This document shows positions 1 to 12,243 of a stretch of 21,644 nucleotides of DNA, one piece after another (the first letter of the stretch is position 1; each line of letters opens with the position of its first letter). The DNA comes from a virus, in IMG/VR virus record IMGVR_UViG_3300013094_000320, positions 1-21,644 of that record; one strand, 5' to 3'. Below the pieces are notes generated by a model, which saw only the letters and a list, made by a program, of their open reading frames with translations, did no database searches and was not told the origin of the DNA. The position numbers were made by a program, and so were the translations under genes.

Positions 1-71
1 CCACTAGGGCCCAGATACGCGAGCACAATGCGGTAGGCGTGGCTCTAAAGTGTGGGTGGATTAAGAAATGA
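1..71 (+). CDS. C-terminal end of an upstream virion gene (partial, possibly capsid protein)
   Basis: The frame starting at base 3 is open from the window edge to a TGA at 69-71 and encodes about 22 residues ending in ALKCGWIKK. Its stop overlaps the next gene's start as ATGA, the same coupling used throughout this phage, which supports it being a real gene end. In P22-like and related podovirus layouts the gene before the adaptor is usually the major capsid protein. That identity is an inference from position only, because too little sequence is present to recognise a family. Confidence 0.6.
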   Translation, partial: TRAQIREHNAVGVALKCGWIKK

Positions 72-808
72 CGACAGGCCTTAGTTACGACGGAACAGTA
101 TCTGGGACGACAAGCTATCTCACACAGATATCTACGATGGCTGTTGTTGACGTAACGGACCCTAATTTTATTAATATTCTTCCACAAATGATTACATTTG
201 CTGAAAACAGGATCTACCGCGACGTAGACTTTCTTTTCACATCTATTGCAACAACGGCATATTCTTTAACTGTTGGAACTCGTGACATTATTGTCCCTGC
301 CGGGACATTTGTTGTTCCTGAGCAAATTAACGTATTGACGCCGGTTGGCGTGACAAATCCAGATGCTGCAACCAGAAACCCACTCCTACCAACAACCAAG
401 GAGTTTCTGGATGCGGTTTACGGTAGCTATCTTTACCCCGGTCTTCCTAAATATTTTTGTCCATTTGACGATTATCACTTCATAGTTGGACCATATCCAG
501 ATCAAAGTTATACAGTTGAGATTATTGGCACATATCGCCCAGACAGCATGTCTGCGACCAACCTTACGACCTTTATCAGTCTTTACCTGCCAGATTTATT
601 TATTATGGCAAGCATGATCTACATTGCTGCATATCAGCGTAACTTCTCGAGCGCGATGGGCAATGATCCACAAATGCCTGTGACCTATGAGACACAGTAT
701 CAAGCGTTATTGAAATCCGCTCTTAGTGAAGAGGAACGTAAAAAATTTCAGGCCGCTGCGTGGTCTTCACAAGGACCGGCTCCAATTGCTACACCAACTC
801 GCGGTTAA
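68..808 (+). CDS. Head-tail adaptor protein (P22 gp4 / T7 gp11-like role)
   Basis: A 246-residue protein that probably forms the adaptor ring between portal and tail. The N-terminal part (about residues 20-60) looks like the alpha-helical start of phage adaptors: a short lead, then DPNFINILPQMITFAENRIY, the pattern of helices that pack on the portal. The middle is beta-rich with many aromatic residues (PKYFCPFDDYHFIVGPYP), followed by helices around residues 170-225 and a flexible Pro/Ala tail. The start is an ATG overlapping the previous stop, with GGTGG about 8 bases upstream. It precedes a large stabiliser-like protein, as adaptors do in podovirus gene order, although an HNH gene now separates them. 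The fold assignment comes from sequence pattern and context. A generic connector protein is the main alternative. Confidence 0.62.
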   Translation: MTTGLSYDGTVSGTTSYLTQISTMAVVDVTDPNFINILPQMITFAENRIYRDVDFLFTSIATTAYSLTVGTRDIIVPAGTFVVPEQINVLTPVGVTNPDAATRNPLLPTTKEFLDAVYGSYLYPGLPKYFCPFDDYHFIVGPYPDQSYTVEIIGTYRPDSMSATNLTTFISLYLPDLFIMASMIYIAAYQRNFSSAMGNDPQMPVTYETQYQALLKSALSEEERKKFQAAAWSSQGPAPIATPTRG

Positions 809-812
809 TATT

Positions 813-1484
813 ATGCAAGATAAAAAATGCCGATTGTGTGAAGAAATTAAACCTATTGAAGGGTTTTCTAAAAAAACGTCTTCAAAAGATGGTCATATGA
901 ATATTTGTAAATTATGTGATTCAAAAAAATCTAGTAAATGGCATTTTGAAAATCCAGAAAAGTCTAAAATACGCGGAGCAAGATATAGAAGTAATAACAA
1001 AGAATATATTTTACAAAGAGATCGAGACAAATATTATAGCGATAAAGAAATTATTTTAAAGAAAAGAAAAGAATATTATGAAAACAATAAATATTTTGTA
1101 ATTAAAAAAGTTTTAAATTATCAAAAAGAAAATAGGGAAGTTAACCGACGTGCACAAAGGAAACATTATACAAATAATAAAATTCAGTATATGTCTCGTT
1201 CAGCATACCGCCGAGCATCAAAGCTTCAGGCCACACCTATATGGTTAAATGAAATACATAAAATGCAAATTCAATGGTTTTATTCAGCATCTAAAATGAT
1301 GACAGAGACTTCTGGCGTTAAGCATCACGTTGACCATATCCATCCACTACAAGGCGATGGTTTTTCAGGTCTTCATGTTCCTTGGAATTTGCGCGTGATT
1401 AAAGCTGAAGAAAACATTTCCAAAAACAACAAGCTCCCACAAGAGCTAAAAAACTTAGCGTGGGAGATTGAATATGCCGCATAG
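813..1484 (+). CDS. HNH homing-type endonuclease with N-terminal zinc motif
   Basis: A 223-residue free-standing HNH endonuclease. The N-terminus has two Cys pairs (C6/C9 and C32/C35) that likely bind zinc. A long, very basic Lys/Tyr/Asn-rich middle follows (about residues 45-130), then an HNH core beginning with HHVDHIHPL (residues 171-179; His172, Asp174 and His175 are likely metal/catalytic residues), followed by GLHVPWNLRVI and an N-x3-N-K ending typical of this subfamily. The gene is clearly more AT-rich than both neighbours, uses many AAA/AAT/ATA codons and lacks a good Shine-Dalgarno sequence. It starts 5 bases after the adaptor stop, and its 3' end overlaps the next gene by 11 bases. 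Insertion between two conserved structural genes and the odd base composition suggest a mobile nuclease gene acquired by transfer. Confidence 0.88.
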   Translation: MQDKKCRLCEEIKPIEGFSKKTSSKDGHMNICKLCDSKKSSKWHFENPEKSKIRGARYRSNNKEYILQRDRDKYYSDKEIILKKRKEYYENNKYFVIKKVLNYQKENREVNRRAQRKHYTNNKIQYMSRSAYRRASKLQATPIWLNEIHKMQIQWFYSASKMMTETSGVKHHVDHIHPLQGDGFSGLHVPWNLRVIKAEENISKNNKLPQELKNLAWEIEYAA

Positions 1485-4314
1485 CACGCTCAAGCTTCAG
1501 CCGGGGGTCGATCAGAATAGAACGCTTGCCCTTAACGAGGCGGCGATATCAAACACGCAGCTCGTTCGTTTCATACCAGACAAGCAAGGTCTTGGGCTTG
1601 TTCAAAAGCTTGGCGGTTGGGTAAAGTATTTTAATTCAAGTATTACAACTATTGTTAGAGCTATGTGGGCGTGGGAAGATACTAACGCCATAACATATTT
1701 AGCTCTTGGATGTGAAGGCAACGCCATAAACGGCAATGGCCTTTCAGTGATATATAACGGCTCTAAACAAGTAATTACACCACAATTCAGCGCGCTCACT
1801 GCAGGAATTGCGACAACTGCAGCGAGTTCCAATACGCCTTTTTATTATTCTATTGTTTCACCCAATGGCGCAATTACTTCAGGAACCACTGCAACGGTTA
1901 CATTTACTGGATACCATTATTTCAAAGTAGGTGATTATATTTACATATCTGGCAACTCTGTAACTAATTATAATGGCACGCAAATTGTAACCGGAGTAAC
2001 ATACAATACAGTATCCTTTACTATTGCTTCTGGAACTGCAAATGGCTCTGGAGGAACAATAACATATGCATCAGGCATACAAACTAATGCCGGTTCTGCA
2101 GATGTTTATGTTACTATTCCAAATTCAAATTTAAATAATTATAGTTCTGTCTATTTTAAAACACCGATGAGCGTTGGTGGTATTGTTATATTTGGGCTTT
2201 ATCAGGCAACATATGTAAGTATTAATCAATTTAAAATAACCGTTACAGATGTCCTTGGAAATTTAAAACCTGCTACGTCAACAGTTTCAACTACGCCGGG
2301 ATTGGGAGCAATGCCGGTGTTTTATTTTACAAATACTCAAGCATTAGTTTATGTGTATTTACCAAATCACGGATATCAGGTTGGGGATACTTTTTCTATT
2401 ATTGATCCTATTCAATCTGGAACTGTTTATCTTTCTGGAAATTATACGGTTCTTGGATTAGGTAGCGATCAAGCTGGAACTAATTCAACTAATTATTTTA
2501 GTATTGGAGCCAACAGCACAGCTACACAGGTTAGTCCATCATCATTTACTGGAGATGGAACATATGCATCTGTTACGTTTCAATTAGGATATGGCGTAAA
2601 TATTGGGGACACAATAACAATATCAAATTGTCCCGTTGCTGGATATAATAATACTGTTGGAGCTATCGTTGTAGACGTTTCATCTACATCCACATCAACA
2701 ACTGTTAAATATGCAAATACAACAACAACCCCGGTATCTTCTTTATTAACTGGGTGTTTCCTTTTTAATGCAACAACACTTTCTAATGGCGGGTTTTCTG
2801 ACATCATTATTTATCGATCTCCCGCCCCACTACCAACAGGAACAGGATACGGCGTTGGTGGTTATGGTGTTGGCGGATATGGCAACGGTGTTGTCCCTCC
2901 TAATCCATATTCTGCAACAACAGCAGCCACTGGAACTACCACTGTTGCAACAATAACCTATAATTCTACCAACCTATTTAATGTTGGTGATACAGTTACA
3001 GTCTCAGGCGTAACGCCACTTGGATACAACGGCACTTACACAGTAACAGCTGTTCCAGCAACAAATCAGATAAGTTTTGCCAATACAACAACTGGGCCTC
3101 AGACAGTTGCAGGAACGGTTACAAACAATACACAGTTAGGACTTCCGTTAACCGTAACAGATTGGACATTAGATAACTGGGGATCTTATCTCATATCCTG
3201 TCCAGTTGGTGGCGGCATATATGAGTGGAGTCCTAACTCTGGCTCAAGCCTTTCATCAATTATACCTCAAGCTCCTCCAGTAAATGACGGCATATTTGTA
3301 GCAATGCCGCAGCGTCAGATTATTGCTTGGGGTAGCACATTTACGGGCATTCAAGATCCACTTCTTGTTAGGTGGTCTGACGTTAATAACTATTCCTCTT
3401 GGATAGCTCTTATTACTAATCAGGCAGGCTCTTATCGCCTTCCACGCGGGTCTAGAATTGTTGGTGGTATTCAAGGCCCACAGCAGGGTTTGATATGGAC
3501 AGACTTAGCCGTATGGGCAATGCAGTATTCTGGTCCTCCATATGTCTATCAGTTCAACGAGCTTGGAACAGGGTGTGGTCTTATTGCTCAAAAGGCAGCG
3601 GCATCAATGAATGGCGCTGTATATTGGATGGGTCAAAGCCAATTCTTTATGCTTGGATCTAATGGCGTTGAAATAATTCCCTGTCCAATATGGGACGTTA
3701 TATTCCAAGACTTAGATACAAGCAACTTAAACAAAATCCGTATTGCGCCTAATTCTCGGTTTGGCGAAATCATGTGGTTTTACCCAACCATCAGCAATGG
3801 TGGAGAGGTTAATGCATACGTCAAATATAATGTTGTTATGCGTCAATGGGATTTTGGAACGCTATCCAGAACAGCTTGGATAAATCAGTCCGTTCTTGGT
3901 CCACCTATTGGCGCTGGCATAGATGATCAGGGAACATATTACATTTATCAGCACGAAATCGGTCAAAATGCTGATGGTAATGTTATGAACTCCAGCTTCC
4001 AGACTGGTTATTTCGTAATTGCTGATGGTGAATATAAAGTATTCGTAGACCAAGTTTGGCCTGACATGAAATGGGGATTATATGGCGGAGCTCAAACAGC
4101 TCACGTCAATCTAACATTCTATGTAACAGATTATCCCGGAGACACGCCAAGAACTTATGGGCCGTATAATATTTCAATTGATACGGAATATATTACGCCA
4201 AGGTTCCGCGGCAGGTTAATGTCAATAAAAATTGAAAGTGATCCTGCAGAAATAAATACTTTCTGGCGTCTAGGCGCTATGCGTTATCGTTTTGAGCAGG
4301 ATGGAAAATTCTAA
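1474..4314 (+). CDS. Large tail / packaged-DNA stabilisation protein (P22 gp10-like), with repeated beta modules
   Basis: A 946-residue virion protein, probably a beta-propeller tail-hub or DNA-stabilisation protein that plugs the portal-adaptor channel. The N-terminus (HSTLKLQPGVDQNRTLALNE, then FIPDKQGLGLVQKLGGWVKY) and the C-terminal half (QRQIIAWGSTF, LLVRWSDVNNYSSW, AVYWMGQSQFFMLGSNG, MRQWDFGTLSRTAW) show the blade-like WSD and aromatic repeats typical of such phage proteins. Four threonine/glycine-rich beta modules of about 50 residues and a GYGVGG repeat (about residues 458-470) are inserted between these halves. The start is set at ATG 1474, which has GGGAG 7 bases upstream, rather than at a TTG six bases earlier. 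The gene overlaps the HNH gene by 11 bases and its stop shares a base with the next start (TAATG). The stabiliser role is inferred from pattern and gene order. Confidence 0.65.
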   Translation: MPHSTLKLQPGVDQNRTLALNEAAISNTQLVRFIPDKQGLGLVQKLGGWVKYFNSSITTIVRAMWAWEDTNAITYLALGCEGNAINGNGLSVIYNGSKQVITPQFSALTAGIATTAASSNTPFYYSIVSPNGAITSGTTATVTFTGYHYFKVGDYIYISGNSVTNYNGTQIVTGVTYNTVSFTIASGTANGSGGTITYASGIQTNAGSADVYVTIPNSNLNNYSSVYFKTPMSVGGIVIFGLYQATYVSINQFKITVTDVLGNLKPATSTVSTTPGLGAMPVFYFTNTQALVYVYLPNHGYQVGDTFSIIDPIQSGTVYLSGNYTVLGLGSDQAGTNSTNYFSIGANSTATQVSPSSFTGDGTYASVTFQLGYGVNIGDTITISNCPVAGYNNTVGAIVVDVSSTSTSTTVKYANTTTTPVSSLLTGCFLFNATTLSNGGFSDIIIYRSPAPLPTGTGYGVGGYGVGGYGNGVVPPNPYSATTAATGTTTVATITYNSTNLFNVGDTVTVSGVTPLGYNGTYTVTAVPATNQISFANTTTGPQTVAGTVTNNTQLGLPLTVTDWTLDNWGSYLISCPVGGGIYEWSPNSGSSLSSIIPQAPPVNDGIFVAMPQRQIIAWGSTFTGIQDPLLVRWSDVNNYSSWIALITNQAGSYRLPRGSRIVGGIQGPQQGLIWTDLAVWAMQYSGPPYVYQFNELGTGCGLIAQKAAASMNGAVYWMGQSQFFMLGSNGVEIIPCPIWDVIFQDLDTSNLNKIRIAPNSRFGEIMWFYPTISNGGEVNAYVKYNVVMRQWDFGTLSRTAWINQSVLGPPIGAGIDDQGTYYIYQHEIGQNADGNVMNSSFQTGYFVIADGEYKVFVDQVWPDMKWGLYGGAQTAHVNLTFYVTDYPGDTPRTYGPYNISIDTEYITPRFRGRLMSIKIESDPAEINTFWRLGAMRYRFEQDGKF
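1882..3127 (+). repeat. Four diverged beta-module repeats inside the stabiliser gene
   Basis: Protein-level repeats of about 50 residues lie at roughly 1882-2076, 2370-2515, 2541-2745 and 2926-3127. Each has a VGD(T/Y) strand, a GYN or NYNGT turn, and a strand resembling NQISFANTT. Copy 4 is the clearest (VGDTVTVSGVTPLGYNGTYT). Copy 2 is the most diverged. They resemble the small beta domains that annotation pipelines sometimes name E1 FCCH-like in phage tail proteins; that name is from memory and untested here. Confidence 0.6.
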
Positions 4315-4892
4315 TGGCTACCTTAGACGATATTCTCACTACACAGAAAAATGGTGTTGTAGCCATTAACAACTTGTCTGAATCTCTTAATAGCCTTTAT
4401 GCGGCATACGTTTCATCAATTGGAAATAAAACATCAACCTCAATATCTTCTGCAACTACTGTTGTTACTGGAACGTCTAGGCTTGTAAGTCTTAATGTTA
4501 CAACTGCAGGTTCGGCTGGAACAATTTATGATTCATTATCTGCAACAGTAACAAATGCTACAGGAACAGGAACCGCGGCAACCCTTACATATAACGGATA
4601 TGGTGTATTTGCTATTGGAGATCTAATCACTGTCGTTGGTATGAATCCCGCCGGTTATAACACAACAAATGCAACTGTAACGGCTATAACAAATACAACT
4701 GTTACTTATGCAAATGCGACGTCGTCAGCGTTTGTAAGTGGTGGAACTTTATTAAACTCTACTTCCTCTCGTATTGTTGCTGCTATACCTGCTACTATCG
4801 GAAATTGGCCGATAGGAAGCTATTTCAAAAAAGGTATAACTGTTCTTCCCGGTGCCAGTCAGGTTGTAACCGTTAATTATTACACAAGCTGA
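4314..4892 (+). CDS. Small virion-associated protein with one shared beta module
   Basis: A 192-residue protein with no function I recognise. The first 40 residues are helical (DDILTTQKNGVVAINNLSES). The rest is a Thr/Ala/Val-rich beta protein. Residues about 85-150 (GDLITVVGMNPAGYNTTNAT and onward) match the beta module repeated four times in the preceding gene. The C-terminus (FKKGITVLPGASQVVTVNYYTS) looks like a closing beta strand. The ATG shares one base with the previous stop (TAATG), so translation is probably coupled and the two proteins may be made together and sit in the same tail structure. It could be a tail decoration protein or a cofactor of the stabiliser; this is inference. 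Confidence 0.7.
   Translation: MATLDDILTTQKNGVVAINNLSESLNSLYAAYVSSIGNKTSTSISSATTVVTGTSRLVSLNVTTAGSAGTIYDSLSATVTNATGTGTAATLTYNGYGVFAIGDLITVVGMNPAGYNTTNATVTAITNTTVTYANATSSAFVSGGTLLNSTSSRIVAAIPATIGNWPIGSYFKKGITVLPGASQVVTVNYYTS
4567..4760 (+). repeat. Fifth copy of the shared beta module
   Basis: This stretch encodes ATLTYNGYGVFAIGDLITVV and continues through GMNPAGYNTTNATVTAI to TYANATSS. It follows the same strand-turn-strand pattern as the four copies in the neighbouring stabiliser gene. Confidence 0.58.
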
Positions 4893-4900
4893 GGATAGTC

Positions 4901-5443
4901 ATGCCGCTCGCTAAGGGAAAATCACAAAAAACTATTTCTTCTAATATCGAAGAAATGGTCCACGCTGGTCATCCCCGGCAACAAGCGGTAGCCGCGGCTC
5001 TCCAGACTGCACGTCAGTCGCGTGCAGAAGGCGGAGAAACGAATGAAAAAATTCATGTTGGCCCTATACATAGTAATGTGGCCGGTCGCACAGATCATTT
5101 GCCTATTAATGTTCCTTCTGGTGCTTATGTCATACCAGCCGACATAATCTCAGCTATGGGCGAAGGCAACACAATGGCCGGTTTCCAAATTGCTAATGAT
5201 GTTTTTGGAATCCAACCTTCTGTTTCTTTACTTGATGACGATGACGCTGTTGGTAAGCCAGTGGAGATCGTAGCAGCTGGTGGAGAATATGTTATCTCTC
5301 CATTTAATGTTGCTCGCATCGGTGTTCGCGCTAGTGGCAATAGTTTAGATAATGGCCACAAACTCTTAGATGAGTTTGTCAAAGAATATCGCGCAAAGAC
5401 CGTTCAAACATTGAAAAAACTACCGGGACCAAAGAAGGACTGA
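4901..5443 (+). CDS. DUF6496-type phage virion protein
   Basis: A 180-residue protein. The N-terminal 40 residues (MPLAKGKSQKTISSNIEEMV, then HAGHPRQQAVAAALQTARQS) match the short basic helical motif named DUF6496 that recurs at the start of many phage structural proteins. The middle (GPIHSNVAGRTDHLPINVPS, then GAYVIPADIISAMGEGNT) and the end (GGEYVISPFNVARIG, LKKLPGPKKD) are also strongly patterned and familiar from uncultured and marine phages. GAGGATAG lies just before the ATG. It sits among tail and ejection genes, so a minor virion or morphogenesis role is likely. The precise function is unknown. Confidence 0.7.
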   Translation: MPLAKGKSQKTISSNIEEMVHAGHPRQQAVAAALQTARQSRAEGGETNEKIHVGPIHSNVAGRTDHLPINVPSGAYVIPADIISAMGEGNTMAGFQIANDVFGIQPSVSLLDDDDAVGKPVEIVAAGGEYVISPFNVARIGVRASGNSLDNGHKLLDEFVKEYRAKTVQTLKKLPGPKKD

Positions 5444-5454
5444 GGGGGACTTCT

Positions 5455-5958
5455 ATGAGTGATGACGTAAAGGTGAGGGTTGGGACGCCAGAGGATTTAG
5501 ATGGTATAATGGACCTTGCCGTTAATGTAGCCAAGGAGAATGGCGTATTTGCTCCTGACATACATAAGGTTTTGAGTGAGGTTTGGCCGTCACTGCACCA
5601 GCACTTTGGCATTGTCGGAGTGATCGGCAATATCGGTAACCCACTTGAGGGGTTCGTGCTACTCAGGATTGGCCAACAGTGGTATAATAATAATAACATC
5701 TTGGAAGAACGGGTAGTTTTCGTCGATAAAAAGTTCCGTAGTGCAAAAGGCGGTCGGGCCAGAAAACTATGCGAGTTTTCCAAAAAGGCGGCAGATGAAT
5801 TGGGATTGCCGCTCATTATAGGAATAATGTCCCACAGTCGGACAGAAGGTAAAATGAGGCTTTATAGGCGAATGTTTGGTCCAGAGGCCGGTTGTTTCTT
5901 CCTTTACGGTGCGACGACTGGCAATTGGAATACAAATGATGGGTTGCCTCAAAGTTAA
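5455..5958 (+). CDS. GNAT-family N-acetyltransferase
   Basis: A 167-residue protein with the GNAT layout. The N-terminus reads VRVGTPEDLDGIMDLA, a beta strand plus first helix. A central beta hairpin follows (GFVLLRIGQQWYNNNNILEE), then VFVDKKFRSAKGGRARKLC, corresponding to the acetyl-CoA-binding motif A loop (R/Q-x-x-G-x-G/A replaced here by RSAKGGRA) and its helix. The strand LPLIIGIMSH and an RLYRRMFGPEAG segment complete the domain. It likely transfers an acetyl group from acetyl-CoA to an unknown acceptor. The gene has a strong GAGGGGG site six bases before the ATG and sits between two virion genes. GNAT genes are a recurring feature at this place in related phages, but their substrate is not known. 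Confidence 0.72.
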   Translation: MSDDVKVRVGTPEDLDGIMDLAVNVAKENGVFAPDIHKVLSEVWPSLHQHFGIVGVIGNIGNPLEGFVLLRIGQQWYNNNNILEERVVFVDKKFRSAKGGRARKLCEFSKKAADELGLPLIIGIMSHSRTEGKMRLYRRMFGPEAGCFFLYGATTGNWNTNDGLPQS

Positions 5959-5971
5959 TTGGAGAAGTTGA

Positions 5972-8900
5972 ATGTGCGGCGGCAAAGGTTCACAATCAGG
6001 CGGCGGAACAGGGGCCCTCGGATGGGGTGGTTTAGCGCCCGCACAGCAGCAAACGACACAAGCCTCCCCGCAGGCCCTTGGCTGGTATAATCAGGCTATG
6101 AACCTTGGCCAGCAGGCCGTCAGTAATCCTTACCAGCAATTCGGAACGACGCCACAAGACTTTGTCGCCCAGCTAAATGCGCAACAGCAGGCCGCGCAGC
6201 AGGGTATACAGCAACAGGCCGCTGCAACTCAGCCGTTTGCTGAAATGGGCGCTGGATTGCAGGCTGCATCAGGATTGGGCAACGCCGCTCAAATGGCCGG
6301 CGCATATATGAACCCATTTATGCAGCAGGTTGTCTCTCCCGTTCAGCAGGCGCTACAGCAGCAGCAAGGGCAACAGCTTGCGCAGCAACAGGCCGATGCT
6401 ATTAGCGGCGGCGCATTTGGCGGCGAGCGTGCTGGTTTGCAACGCGCAACCCTTCAGGGTCAGCAAGAGCTTGCTATGGGTCAGGCCCTTAGCCCCCTAT
6501 ATCAGACGGGATATGGTCAAGCTCTAGGCGCAGCTCAAACAGATCTTCAGCGCCAGTTAGCAGCTGGACAGGGCCTGTCTCAAGCAGGATTGGCCGCACA
6601 ACAGGCTTCCCTTGGCGCGGGAACACTTGGCCAGCAGACGCAGCAGGCGGGAATTAACGCTCTCTACAATCAGTTTCAGCAGCAGCAAATGTGGCCATAC
6701 ATGCAGGCGCAGTTTCTTGGCGGACTTGCTGGATCACTTGGACCCCTTACTGGCACTCAGACATATCAGGCGCAGGCGTCTAACCCATTTGGTATGCTTC
6801 TCGCCCGTGGTGGCGCTGCCAAGTCACGCATGGGTGGCGCAGTAAGGGGCGGCGGTGACTACTACAAGGGTGGTGTGGTCCCGCAGGGATACGCCACTAA
6901 GGGCGGCGTCCCCATTGGTGACGTTTCCTATGGTGACGACCACGACCTCGCAAGCGCATTGGACTCACAAGAGGCAATGTATCAAAACGCTCCGACACCT
7001 GAAGACATACCTGCAAGTCAAATTCAAACGGGTAAGCCCCTTGAAGCCAAACTTGGTAGTGTTGGTCAAGGCAAACAACAGGCAAGTCTGTCTGATATCA
7101 TCAAGGCTGGCAAAGATGCCCTTGGTCTTGGTTCAGATATATATGGTATGGGAAAAAGTGCTTACGGCGGGCTAGGCGCTGCGGCTGATAGTTTGTTTGG
7201 TCCCGCAACAGTAACTGGCGGAGCGGGCTCTTTAGCTGTCCCGACATATGGGGCAGGATTAGGCGCTCAAATTGGGTCCGGCCTTTCTGGTATTGGATCA
7301 GCACTTGGTGATATTGGAAGTGCTGCTTTAGCCTTTCTTCCTTTTGGATTTGAACGAGGCGGCGCTGTTCCTCGTCACGGCTACAATGGCGAAAATGGTT
7401 CTTCTGTTCCAGTATCTGAAGAAGACGACGGCTTTGAGCCTGCAGTTGAGCGCACATTAAAGTTTGAGGGTGGATTAAATCCGCGCGACACGACTGGCCT
7501 GCCTTCAATGCGCGGCATTAGCCAAGCAGCTCACCCCAATATTGACGTAACTAAATTAACCCCTGAACAGACAAAAGACATTTATCGCAAAGAATATTGG
7601 CAGGGAATTAATGCATCTAACTTGCCGCCTGAAATTAGAGAAATGGCCTACGACACTGCAGTCATGGCTGGTCCGGGTAGAGCCAAACAATTGCTTGCTC
7701 AGTCTGAAAATGACCCTGAAAAGTTTATGTCGGCGCGGCGTGACTTTTTAAATAGTCTTGTTGAGCGCAACCCCGAAAAATACGGAAAATACGCAAAGGC
7801 TTGGGAAAACAGAAACCGCGCACTAGAGGGCGGCGACACTGCTGGCGGTGGACTTGCTGGTGCTGAGAAGGCTCTTCTCTCAAGCCGGTCGGAAATACCT
7901 TTAGGCGATCCGCGACGTAGCTATTTAGGTCTGGACCAATCCGAAAAGGCTGCGCCAGAAGAAGAGGGGTTGGGCGGAATATTTAAAGAAGAGCACGTCG
8001 TCCCAGCTCTAATGGGTCTTGGTTCTGCAATTTCTGGTATGGTCGGCGCTAAGACAACGTCACCCGGCGCGGCCATTGCTTCTGGCCTTGGTCAGGGGCT
8101 TGCTGGTGGCGCTAAGTCTTATATGGATATGCGCAAAGACCAGCTTGCTAGAGAAATAGAGAAATCAAAAATGTCCCTTCAAGAAAGAGGGGTAAATGTC
8201 GAAGAATTAAATGCTCTACTCAAGCAAAGCGAATTTGCGCAAAAACAAAAAAGCATAAAAAATACTGCTGATATATTGGCAGGTAGAAAGCCCTCTTATC
8301 CAGAGGAGCCAACAACTACGACACCAAAAGACACAGCTCCATCTGCACAACCTCCTCAATCAAAGGAACAGAAGACTGAATCTATTCGGCTTGCTGAGAG
8401 GGCAGAAGCTGAGGCAGAACAATATAGACAAATGGCAAGAGCCGCAACGACCCAAGAAGAACAAAGAGATTTCTTGTCGAAGGCAAATGCTTCAGACGCA
8501 AGAGCTGAAAATTTAAGGATGCAATCTCCTGAGAATTTAGAATTGAAGGCTGGCGCAGAACTTAGAGCTAAACAGTATCAAGCAATTGAGCAAAGCATTG
8601 CCGACGACGTTAGAGCCGCTCAACCTGCAATTGATAGATTAGAACTAACTAATAGCCTCCTTGATGACAAAGGCGTCTACACTGGTCCTCTTGGAGAAAG
8701 GTTCTTGCAAGTCAAGCAAACGCTTGATGCCTTGGGATATCCGGGACTCAAAGAAGGCGTTTCAAATACAGAGTTCTTTAGGTCTATGGCTAATAAAATG
8801 GTTACAGATGCCACCAACGGCAGTCTTGGCGCTGGAATATCTAATGCCGACGTCAATTTTCTTAGACAAGTTCAGGCAAATATGGGGACTTCTAAAGAGG

Positions 8901-9181
8901 GTAATAGAAAGATTATTGATCTTGCAATTAGGTTGCAAAAAAGAAAACAAGAGGTCGCACAATTCCAATCGGAATATGGAAATGTTGATAAGAAATTCAG
9001 TGTTGCTTTAGACAAGTGGGCAAAAGAACATCCAATGTTCTCAGAAAAAGATTTGCCTCCAAAGAGCGAAGCTAGACCAAGCTCTGATGCAACATTAAAG
9101 GCTTTGAAAGAAAAATATCCTCAATATTCTGAAGACGAACTTCGGGCTCAGTATGAATTGCTGAAAAAGGGTAGAAAATAA
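5972..9181 (+). CDS. Internal virion (ejection) protein with embedded GH108 muramidase domain
   Basis: A 1069-residue protein, probably packed in the head and ejected into the cell envelope with the DNA. It begins MCGGKG, a start common among phage internal proteins. Residues 1-270 are Gln/Ala-rich helices with many QQQ runs. Residues 272-310 form a Gly-rich linker (RGGGDYYKGGVV). A Gly/Ala segment at 390-460 may contact membranes. Residues about 487-635 resemble glycoside hydrolase family 108: an FEGGLNPRD strand with the probable catalytic Glu499, then GLPSMRGISQAAHP and IYRKEYWQGI. A second Gly/Ala stretch at about 675-720 is followed by coiled coil, and residues about 890-1069 are a helical C-terminal domain seen in related phages. 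GGAG stands 7 bases before the ATG. It likely digests peptidoglycan locally during DNA entry. The boundaries are approximate. Confidence 0.78.
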   Translation: MCGGKGSQSGGGTGALGWGGLAPAQQQTTQASPQALGWYNQAMNLGQQAVSNPYQQFGTTPQDFVAQLNAQQQAAQQGIQQQAAATQPFAEMGAGLQAASGLGNAAQMAGAYMNPFMQQVVSPVQQALQQQQGQQLAQQQADAISGGAFGGERAGLQRATLQGQQELAMGQALSPLYQTGYGQALGAAQTDLQRQLAAGQGLSQAGLAAQQASLGAGTLGQQTQQAGINALYNQFQQQQMWPYMQAQFLGGLAGSLGPLTGTQTYQAQASNPFGMLLARGGAAKSRMGGAVRGGGDYYKGGVVPQGYATKGGVPIGDVSYGDDHDLASALDSQEAMYQNAPTPEDIPASQIQTGKPLEAKLGSVGQGKQQASLSDIIKAGKDALGLGSDIYGMGKSAYGGLGAAADSLFGPATVTGGAGSLAVPTYGAGLGAQIGSGLSGIGSALGDIGSAALAFLPFGFERGGAVPRHGYNGENGSSVPVSEEDDGFEPAVERTLKFEGGLNPRDTTGLPSMRGISQAAHPNIDVTKLTPEQTKDIYRKEYWQGINASNLPPEIREMAYDTAVMAGPGRAKQLLAQSENDPEKFMSARRDFLNSLVERNPEKYGKYAKAWENRNRALEGGDTAGGGLAGAEKALLSSRSEIPLGDPRRSYLGLDQSEKAAPEEEGLGGIFKEEHVVPALMGLGSAISGMVGAKTTSPGAAIASGLGQGLAGGAKSYMDMRKDQLAREIEKSKMSLQERGVNVEELNALLKQSEFAQKQKSIKNTADILAGRKPSYPEEPTTTTPKDTAPSAQPPQSKEQKTESIRLAERAEAEAEQYRQMARAATTQEEQRDFLSKANASDARAENLRMQSPENLELKAGAELRAKQYQAIEQSIADDVRAAQPAIDRLELTNSLLDDKGVYTGPLGERFLQVKQTLDALGYPGLKEGVSNTEFFRSMANKMVTDATNGSLGAGISNADVNFLRQVQANMGTSKEGNRKIIDLAIRLQKRKQEVAQFQSEYGNVDKKFSVALDKWAKEHPMFSEKDLPPKSEARPSSDATLKALKEKYPQYSEDELRAQYELLKKGRK

Positions 9182-11424: not shown

Positions 11425-12243
11425 ATGGCCAATAACCCGACAACAAATAAGCAGCTTAACCGTCCTGATTATAACGATCAGAACTGGAACACGCCGCTTA
11501 ATAATGACTTCACGATTATTGACCAGTGCTTTGGTTCTACTATTCAGCCGTCAAATGTTTCCAATGTTTATACCGTTGGCAGCACAGACATCCAGAACAT
11601 GCGTATTAATTTAACGGGAACATTAACAGCAAATGCTACTGTTACAGTTCCTCCTTCCTATGGCGGATTTTGGATAGTTACGAATAATACAACCAACAGT
11701 CCATCAAGCTCCAGCTTTACTCTCAATATGAGAACGACAACCGGATCTAATCTTGTTCAGATCCAGCAAGGTTACTCGACAATTGTGTATAGCAATGGCG
11801 TTGATTGTTTTGAGGCTGTTTCTCAAAAGTTTAATGTCACTGGCGGAACAGTTAGCGGCAATCTAACTGTTACTGGCGGATTAAATGTTAATGGTAGCGC
11901 AATGTATTTTAATGCTGGTAGTGGTCAGCTTTATGTTGCTGGAACAATATACGCCACTGGCAACATCACGGCGTTCTCTGACGAGCGTCTAAAGAGCAAT
12001 ATATCAAATATTGATAATGCTCTTGAGCTTGTTAAGCAGCTGCGTGGTGTTCGCTTTGAAGATAAAGATGGAGAAAAATATGTCGGCGTTATTGCTCAGG
12101 AAGTTAAGCCAATTGTTCCTGAAGTTGTAATTGAACACCAAGACAGTGGGTATTACAGCGTTGCATATCAAAATCTTGTTGGCGTTTTAATTAACGCCGT
12201 TAAAGAGCTATCAGAGAAAGTCGAGAGACTGGAGAATAAATAA
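11425..12243 (+). CDS. Tail fibre/spike protein with C-terminal S74 self-cleaving chaperone
   Basis: A 272-residue protein. The N-terminus (KQLNRPDYNDQNWNTPLNND) is a virion-attachment motif common in phage fibres. Residues about 40-135 form a beta domain and 135-183 a short repetitive shaft (GGTVSGNLTVTGGLNVNGS). Residues 185-272 are an intramolecular chaperone of the Peptidase_S74 family. It begins SDERLKSNISNIDNAL, with Ser185-Asp186 at the expected autocleavage site, continues YVGVIAQEVKPIVPEVV and ends in a trimeric coiled coil (LINAVKELSEKVERLENK). In this family the chaperone drives trimer folding and is then released by self-cleavage next to the conserved Ser. GAGGATAAG precedes the ATG. 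It is short for a receptor-binding fibre, so the next gene may supply the tip. Confidence 0.88.
   Translation: MANNPTTNKQLNRPDYNDQNWNTPLNNDFTIIDQCFGSTIQPSNVSNVYTVGSTDIQNMRINLTGTLTANATVTVPPSYGGFWIVTNNTTNSPSSSSFTLNMRTTTGSNLVQIQQGYSTIVYSNGVDCFEAVSQKFNVTGGTVSGNLTVTGGLNVNGSAMYFNAGSGQLYVAGTIYATGNITAFSDERLKSNISNIDNALELVKQLRGVRFEDKDGEKYVGVIAQEVKPIVPEVVIEHQDSGYYSVAYQNLVGVLINAVKELSEKVERLENK

Follow-up and report, generated by a model that had tools for sequence, protein, structure and literature searches.

Varying numbers of a predicted E1-FCCH-fold module in a podovirus-type tail nozzle protein and in its neighbour

Nozzle proteins are the gate for the DNA of short-tailed phages and are usually treated as fixed core parts. 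The nozzle of phage SU10 carries four immunoglobulin (Ig)-like domains between propeller blades 2 and 3, which are folded around the resting tail and become straight during infection, extending the tail by 28 nm (PMC9509320). The crAss001 nozzle has Ig-like domains in blade 3 and between this blade and blade 2 (PMC10172136). BACON repeats are small beta domains of virion proteins (PMC6949934), and the K1F endosialidase has three sites for polysialic acid, one of which is its beta-barrel, also a hot spot of host discrimination (PMC12632334); here and below, reports given by PMC number are cited for excerpts. Here we describe a small beta module that occurs three times in the predicted nozzle protein (948 residues) and once in the adjacent 192-residue protein (gp192) of a virus, IMG/VR record IMGVR_UViG_3300013094_000320. 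The window, as the term is used below, is this entire record of 21,644 bases.

An initial annotation, made from the sequence alone, had counted five copies of one beta domain in the two genes, and there are indeed five VGD/IGD sites, at 1927, 2380, 2602, 2983, and 4614. That one small beta domain is present in both adjacent virion genes was borne out: segments 1, 3, 4, and 5 are mutually related in an all-against-all alignment, the six pairs having z values of 4.3–13.5, and for each pair none of 2000 shuffles reaches the score. Segment 2 (VGD at 2380) is unrelated to the other four, with z below 1 in all four pairs and a score that is reached in 390–1517 of 2000 shuffles. We built a profile from the four good copies and iterated it over 81 sequences. 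Whether it is run on the open reading frames of the window or on all six frames of the record, its matches are these four copies alone, without segment 2. The 81 nozzles compared are that of the window and those of 80 viral contigs, which are the best matches to the window protein of 588, so that the sample leans to close kin. Segment 2 lies within scaffold that is present in all 81, including the 12 without any module. This scaffold contains two tandem homologous domains, N2a and N2b (hhalign 97.1%, E 7e-11), for which no sequence relation to the module was found (hhalign 0.3% for N2a and 1.8% for N2b) and on which the module profile scores no better than on shuffled sequence. Pairwise z values, profile, hhalign, and shuffle-level scores together rule out segment 2 as a fifth copy; because it is scaffold, there are four modules, three in the nozzle and one in gp192. 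Segment 2 was rejected on sequence; N2b and the module may have a distant fold in common. The features are:

1474–4314, plus strand: tail nozzle protein gene, 946 residues from ATG at 1474 or 948 from TTG at 1468 (PHROG 3287, PDB nozzle and model matches)
1861–2061, plus strand: module 1, FCCH-like beta domain, site B (all-against-all alignment, profile, model strands)
2074–2277, plus strand: N2a, beta domain of the nozzle arm that belongs to the permanent scaffold and not to the modules (hhalign)
2308–2529, plus strand: N2b, permanent scaffold beta domain, the second copy of the initial annotation (unrelated to the modules; present in module-less relatives)
2536–2754, plus strand: module 2, third copy of the initial annotation, site D (alignment, profile, model strands)
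2830–2904, plus strand: Gly/Tyr-rich linker of low model confidence (predicted local distance difference test, pLDDT, below 50 at model residues 453–477)
2917–3120, plus strand: module 3, fourth copy of the initial annotation, site E (alignment, profile, model strands)
3157–4311, plus strand: C-terminal part of the beta-propeller and platform, from TDWTLDNWG (conserved in all relatives; aligned to PDB nozzles)
4314–4892, plus strand: gp192, N-terminal helix and beta domain with one module (model pLDDT 94.2; homologues with and without module)
4548–4751, plus strand: module 4, fifth copy of the initial annotation, in a loop of gp192 (alignment, profile; FCCH fold Z 10.8)

The 948-residue protein is, by its profile and model matches, a podovirus tail nozzle of the P22 gp10/SU10 gp17 type. 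It matches PHROG 3287 (virion structural protein) with E 2e-52 along residues 43–947; this profile has 524 positions, and the protein therefore has some 400 residues extra. The assignment is made because a profile from 57 of the 81 nozzles matches the PDB nozzles of VP1 (8zkm/8zkk, E 4e-7) and Pa223 (9nwi, E 2e-5), and because the structures agree. Thus, for the AlphaFold2 model the best Foldseek match is the SU10 nozzle (2e-21), and a second-look structure alignment (VIA) gives Z 27.5 for Pa223, 26.0 for VP1, 25.9 for SU10, and 25.3 for P22 gp10 over 413–465 residues, and 23.8 for the crAss001 muzzle protein gp44. The propeller and platform fold of podovirus nozzles is thus found in the model. 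About 115 residues precede the module-bearing stretch and the conserved DWTLDNWG re-entry follows it, for which reason the stretch would correspond by position to the SU10/crAss001 arm, the blade numbering being one that we infer by analogy. As had been proposed, the modules are thus set between the N-terminal and C-terminal portions of a beta-propeller protein, whose chain they interrupt.

According to the models, the module is a six-stranded beta-barrel of approximately 68 residues with the E1-FCCH fold. The model of gp192 is of high confidence (pLDDT 94.2), and its residues 73–151 superimpose in VIA on the FCCH domain of ubiquitin E1 enzymes (reference PDB 4p22) with Z 10.8 and 1.8 Å over 76 residues. 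The top 36 VIA rows for the gp192 module are E1 chains (Z 10.8 to 8.3), followed by phage proteins: the phi92 endosialidase (8.1), tail entries of FCWL1 and T1 (7.9 and 7.6), and the K1F endosialidase (7.0–7.2). The three nozzle copies have the same strand order in the nozzle model. In BFVD, 24 viral proteins match the gp192 model at E ≤0.001, among them tail and baseplate proteins, a protein named for an FCCH domain, and a 117-residue protein resembling a module-less gp192. The sequence gives less. Pfam and NCBIfam scans of 68 of the 142 modules yielded scattered weak matches; PF12195 (End_beta_barrel, endosialidase) missed its cut-off (2 of the 68, best E 0.029), the gp192 copy of the window has no match to PF16190, and the module profile against PDB sequences had chance-level matches only (best 0.017 to a lectin repeat, then antibody light chains). 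The E1_FCCH link of the initial annotation therefore stands for the fold and falls short in sequence. Likewise, the proposed structure prediction of both proteins returned FCCH for the gp192 copy and the same strand order for the nozzle copies. No convincing family was found for gp192 itself, the VIA list having covered its module only, and tblastn of gp192 in the phages collection gave no match; a search with the site-E module in the same collection gave three records. Literature searches limited to open-licence PMC returned no paper on this module in phage nozzles.

That the number of modules differs among relatives, as had been suspected, was confirmed. Of the 81 nozzles, 12 have none, 38 have one, 18 have two, and 13 have three. 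They are inserted at five sites, which in window numbering with the modules removed are A (~89), B (~124–136), C (~208–211), D (~294–303), and E (~354–362). Sites B to E flank N2a and N2b, separate the two, or precede the re-entry into the propeller, and site A, which is empty in the window, is a loop in the early propeller part. Four proteins have a tandem pair at site D, the first of each pair being a partial profile match. A gp192 homologue is present at 78 of the 81 loci (those of loci L003 and L068 are short at the contig end) and carries a module in 29; in the alignment rows displayed (one in two of the 49 of the 78 homologues that were aligned) this module is in the same loop. No other open reading frame with a module was found in the 81 sequences, which reach about 5 kb to each side of the nozzle. 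Presence is patchy also among close relatives, and there are clean pairs of empty and filled sites with matching flanks (L079 vs. L037/L040, L080 vs. L068/L078, and L066 vs. L057/L062). Nozzles with modules next to a module-less gp192 are common, for example at L022–L026. Nozzle relatives in twelve genome contigs have modules in three cases, and none of the ten gp192 homologues found there has one. One of the module-less nozzles of this family is in L228 (JAOYTL010000026.1, 62,205 bases), whose assembly is titled Boseaceae bacterium BT-24-1 and is not marked as a metagenome-assembled genome; it is a possible host lead. In L003 (4487–4666) a collagen-like Gly-Pro-Thr stretch comes after the usual N-terminal helix of the gp192 homologue, ahead of the contig end, and for this reason another kind of part may there replace the beta domain.

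How often modules were gained or lost was estimated on a scaffold tree of the propeller part only, with 66 of the 81 rows kept (14 near-duplicates and the truncated L006 were dropped). The fewest presence changes are 8 for site A, 2 for B, 7 for C, 12 for D, and 3 for E, some of which recombination could make look separate; for the gp192 module the number is 3 (63 rows). A tree of 108 of the 142 modules, those of the kept rows (67 columns, many unresolved forks), has at least 21 changes of site label as compared with a mean of 55 after shuffling (200 shuffles, minimum 50), and modules therefore mostly stay at their site but have also moved between sites. For 93 of the 108 the nearest module of another locus is at the same site. 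The copies of the window are 32–46% identical to each other and 87–93% identical to the same-site copies of L001, the nearest relative. Outside L001 the best match of the gp192 copy is a site-C nozzle module of L058 (63%), and in the module tree it groups with nozzle modules of other phages. These identities and the L058 match favour exchange among phages over copying within one genome and speak against a duplication that crossed the gene boundary recently in this lineage; an old duplication may have occurred. The ratio of nonsynonymous to synonymous substitution rates (dN/dS) versus L001 is 0.03–0.05 in the four modules, like that of the rest of the two genes, and indicates purifying selection. 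Diversifying selection on the modules was not found in this comparison, in which synonymous sites are near saturation; versus L002 and L004 some ratios are incomputable or higher (up to 0.29 at site D vs. L004). Of the variable surface that had been envisaged, variation in presence, number, and identity of modules is thus upheld and fast point evolution is not. That the modules are under purifying selection and that many relatives lack them is in keeping with an optional part whose use is real but can be replaced.

The module is also found outside the nozzle and gp192. Two single-module searches of viral contigs, from each of which the best 80 loci were taken so that the shares of open reading frames are not frequencies, gave among the matches listed 135 further loci with 170 module-bearing open reading frames, namely 76 nozzles, 10 gp192-like, and 84 others. 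Ten of these 84 were annotated: there are matches to tail-fibre families in L153, L095, and L140 (with a collagen stretch), to "tail fiber assembly" in L112, and to a Phage-tail_3 protein in L134, weak matches to a pectate lyase (L199), an SU10-type adaptor (L110), and a head protein (L145), and two without match. The modules match six PHROGs, five of them named virion, head or tail-fibre proteins. One domain is thus found in several unrelated virion proteins (nozzle, gp192, tail-fibre, Phage-tail_3, and weakly adaptor-like), a behaviour shared with mobile domains but not the Ig fold. The tail-fibre-like protein of L153 (3–3995) has six modules in tandem. In L110 (3252–4229) the module is at residues 85–152 of a 326-residue protein, and because of its weak adaptor match the adaptor may be another carrier.

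We propose that the module is a promiscuous plug-in cassette of virion proteins with the FCCH fold. It would be inserted in nozzle loops, chiefly where domains meet in the arm that runs out from the beta-propeller and back to it, plus the site A loop in the early propeller, with one more copy in a loop of the neighbouring gp192. Each added module would lengthen and decorate the arm at the tail tip; added barrels would tune its reach and offer weak, replaceable contacts with the cell surface, as in the K1F endosialidase with polysialic acid. Co-infecting phages would recombine and so generate new combinations, drawing on a common pool of modules and not duplicating those of a single genome. We regard this account as a whole as somewhat probable and its descriptive part alone as very probable; a role of the module as arm spacer or contact, drawn by analogy, is plausible and slightly in doubt. 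Several points weigh against the account. Plain Foldseek of gp192 gave no PDB match at E ≤0.001 (best 1.3e-3, an E1), the cut-off of the Pfam FCCH family (PF16190) was missed (2 of 68 modules match at E up to 1, best E 0.0027), and the FCCH fold of the nozzle copies is read from strand order, the single-copy fold search having covered the gp192 module. The nozzle model is of moderate confidence (mean pLDDT 78.4) with poor linkers, the blade assignment of the insertion is by analogy, and the effect on arm length or binding is one that we infer. Finally, 12 of the 81 relatives do without any nozzle module, which makes its role optional.

The latter observation, together with patchy presence, the many changes at sites A, C, and D, and insertion at loops and domain junctions, would be expected also of an inert hitch-hiker, a compact domain that exposed loops tolerate, that recombination spreads and that is later lost, without a selected role in the nozzle. 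However, dN/dS versus L001 is in all four copies as low as in the scaffold (which could reflect folding alone), sites B and E and the gp192 copy were retained through a clade, and the domain recurs again and again in virion proteins, so that we consider inertness unlikely, though deserving some weight. The modules could instead act as structural mortar that stabilizes the nozzle hexamer or ties the nozzle to gp192 or fibres, not in host contact: in SU10 the arm domains hold the short fibres as well as the nozzle subunits beside them (PMC9509320), in E1 the FCCH domain is likewise inserted and binds proteins (PMC12355090), and both adjacent gene products here have the module. Yet module-less nozzles and gp192 proteins are found in many combinations; since module nozzles with a module-less gp192 are common (e.g., L022–L026), no fixed pairing of the two is needed, and this explanation appears to us still less probable. 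The least probable by far is that of the initial annotation, one module duplicated in this genome into five copies and spread across the gene boundary as a recent event. It has in its favour four related copies in two adjacent genes, but segment 2 is not a copy, the window copies resemble those of L001 at the same site much more than each other, and the gp192 module groups with nozzle modules of other phages.

If the plug-in cassette is taken further, it could be a general recombination-borne adapter, the number and position of which in the nozzle arm set reach and contacts of the tail tip and which is swapped among nozzle, gp192-type, adaptor, and fibre proteins from a shared pool; this extension is tentative and we doubt it more than the account itself. 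Whatever its role, a core nozzle protein has in nature five places at which an extra domain can be taken up, and the empty and filled pairs are ready-made comparisons for asking if adsorption and ejection are controlled by the length of the arm or by its contacts.

On the plus strand of the window the order of genes is SU10-type tail adaptor, endonuclease VII/HNH-like gene, nozzle, gp192, a 180-residue protein, a GNAT-like protein, a 1069-residue protein (glycosyl hydrolase 108 domain), a 744-residue protein, and a peptidase S74-domain protein. The feature upstream of the nozzle is:

68–808, plus strand: SU10-type tail adaptor gene (PF24175, E 3e-18; directly upstream of the nozzle in relatives by synteny)

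An adaptor homologue is upstream of the nozzle at 81 of the 81 loci listed, and the order adaptor, nozzle, gp192, 180-residue protein, GNAT-like protein (window 4901–5958 and relatives) recurs at most loci and in the complete 61.2-kb genome MW202675.1. Bases 1–5830 are identical in an independent second IMG/VR contig (L086), and the arrangement is therefore not an accident of assembly. The endonuclease VII/HNH-like gene (726–1484) lies between adaptor and nozzle and overlaps both. A homologue is in this position at just 6 of the 81 loci (window, L013, L014, L015, L059, and L061) and absent from L001; for these reasons the gene looks like a recent homing endonuclease and is ruled out as a general driver of module spread. 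The 1069-residue virion-type protein (5972–9181) has a lysozyme-like glycosyl hydrolase 108 domain and its MW202675.1 homologue is annotated as internal virion protein D, from which it may be an ejected wall-cutting protein. A short protein at 11425–12243 has a peptidase S74 chaperone domain and tail-fibre family matches.

Among described systems, SU10 gp17 (Kuravirus; PDB 7z4b, 7z47, 7z4f) is, in the excerpts of its description, alike in platform, seven-bladed propeller, and chain of inserted small beta domains. It differs in having four Ig-like arm domains, whereas here there are two permanent domains (N2a and N2b) and varying FCCH-like modules. The muzzle protein gp44 of crAss001 is alike in propeller nozzle and Ig-like insertions, and among crassviruses it varies in length through insertions; the excerpts of that report (PMC10172136) describe no FCCH-like module. 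The FCCH domain of ubiquitin E1 enzymes is alike in fold, in being inserted in a loop, and in its use for protein contacts, but the module lacks PF16190 membership by sequence and is part of a virion protein rather than an enzyme. The beta-barrel of the K1F and phi92 endosialidases (PF12195) has a similar fold (Z 7.0–8.1) with weak sequence matches (2 of 68); it belongs, however, to a capsule-degrading tailspike that binds polysialic acid, and the module is not known to have such a ligand. Mobile Ig-like domains of phage virion proteins were reportedly described by Fraser and co-workers in 2006. Like these and BACON, the module is a small beta domain common to unrelated virion proteins, patchy and variable in number. 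It is thus a variant of phage modularity that is already known, and its FCCH fold adds a second fold to the short list of small beta domains moving among phage virion proteins. It differs from Ig-like domains and BACON in that fold, and in that one nozzle scaffold is seen here with five alternative sites empty or filled.

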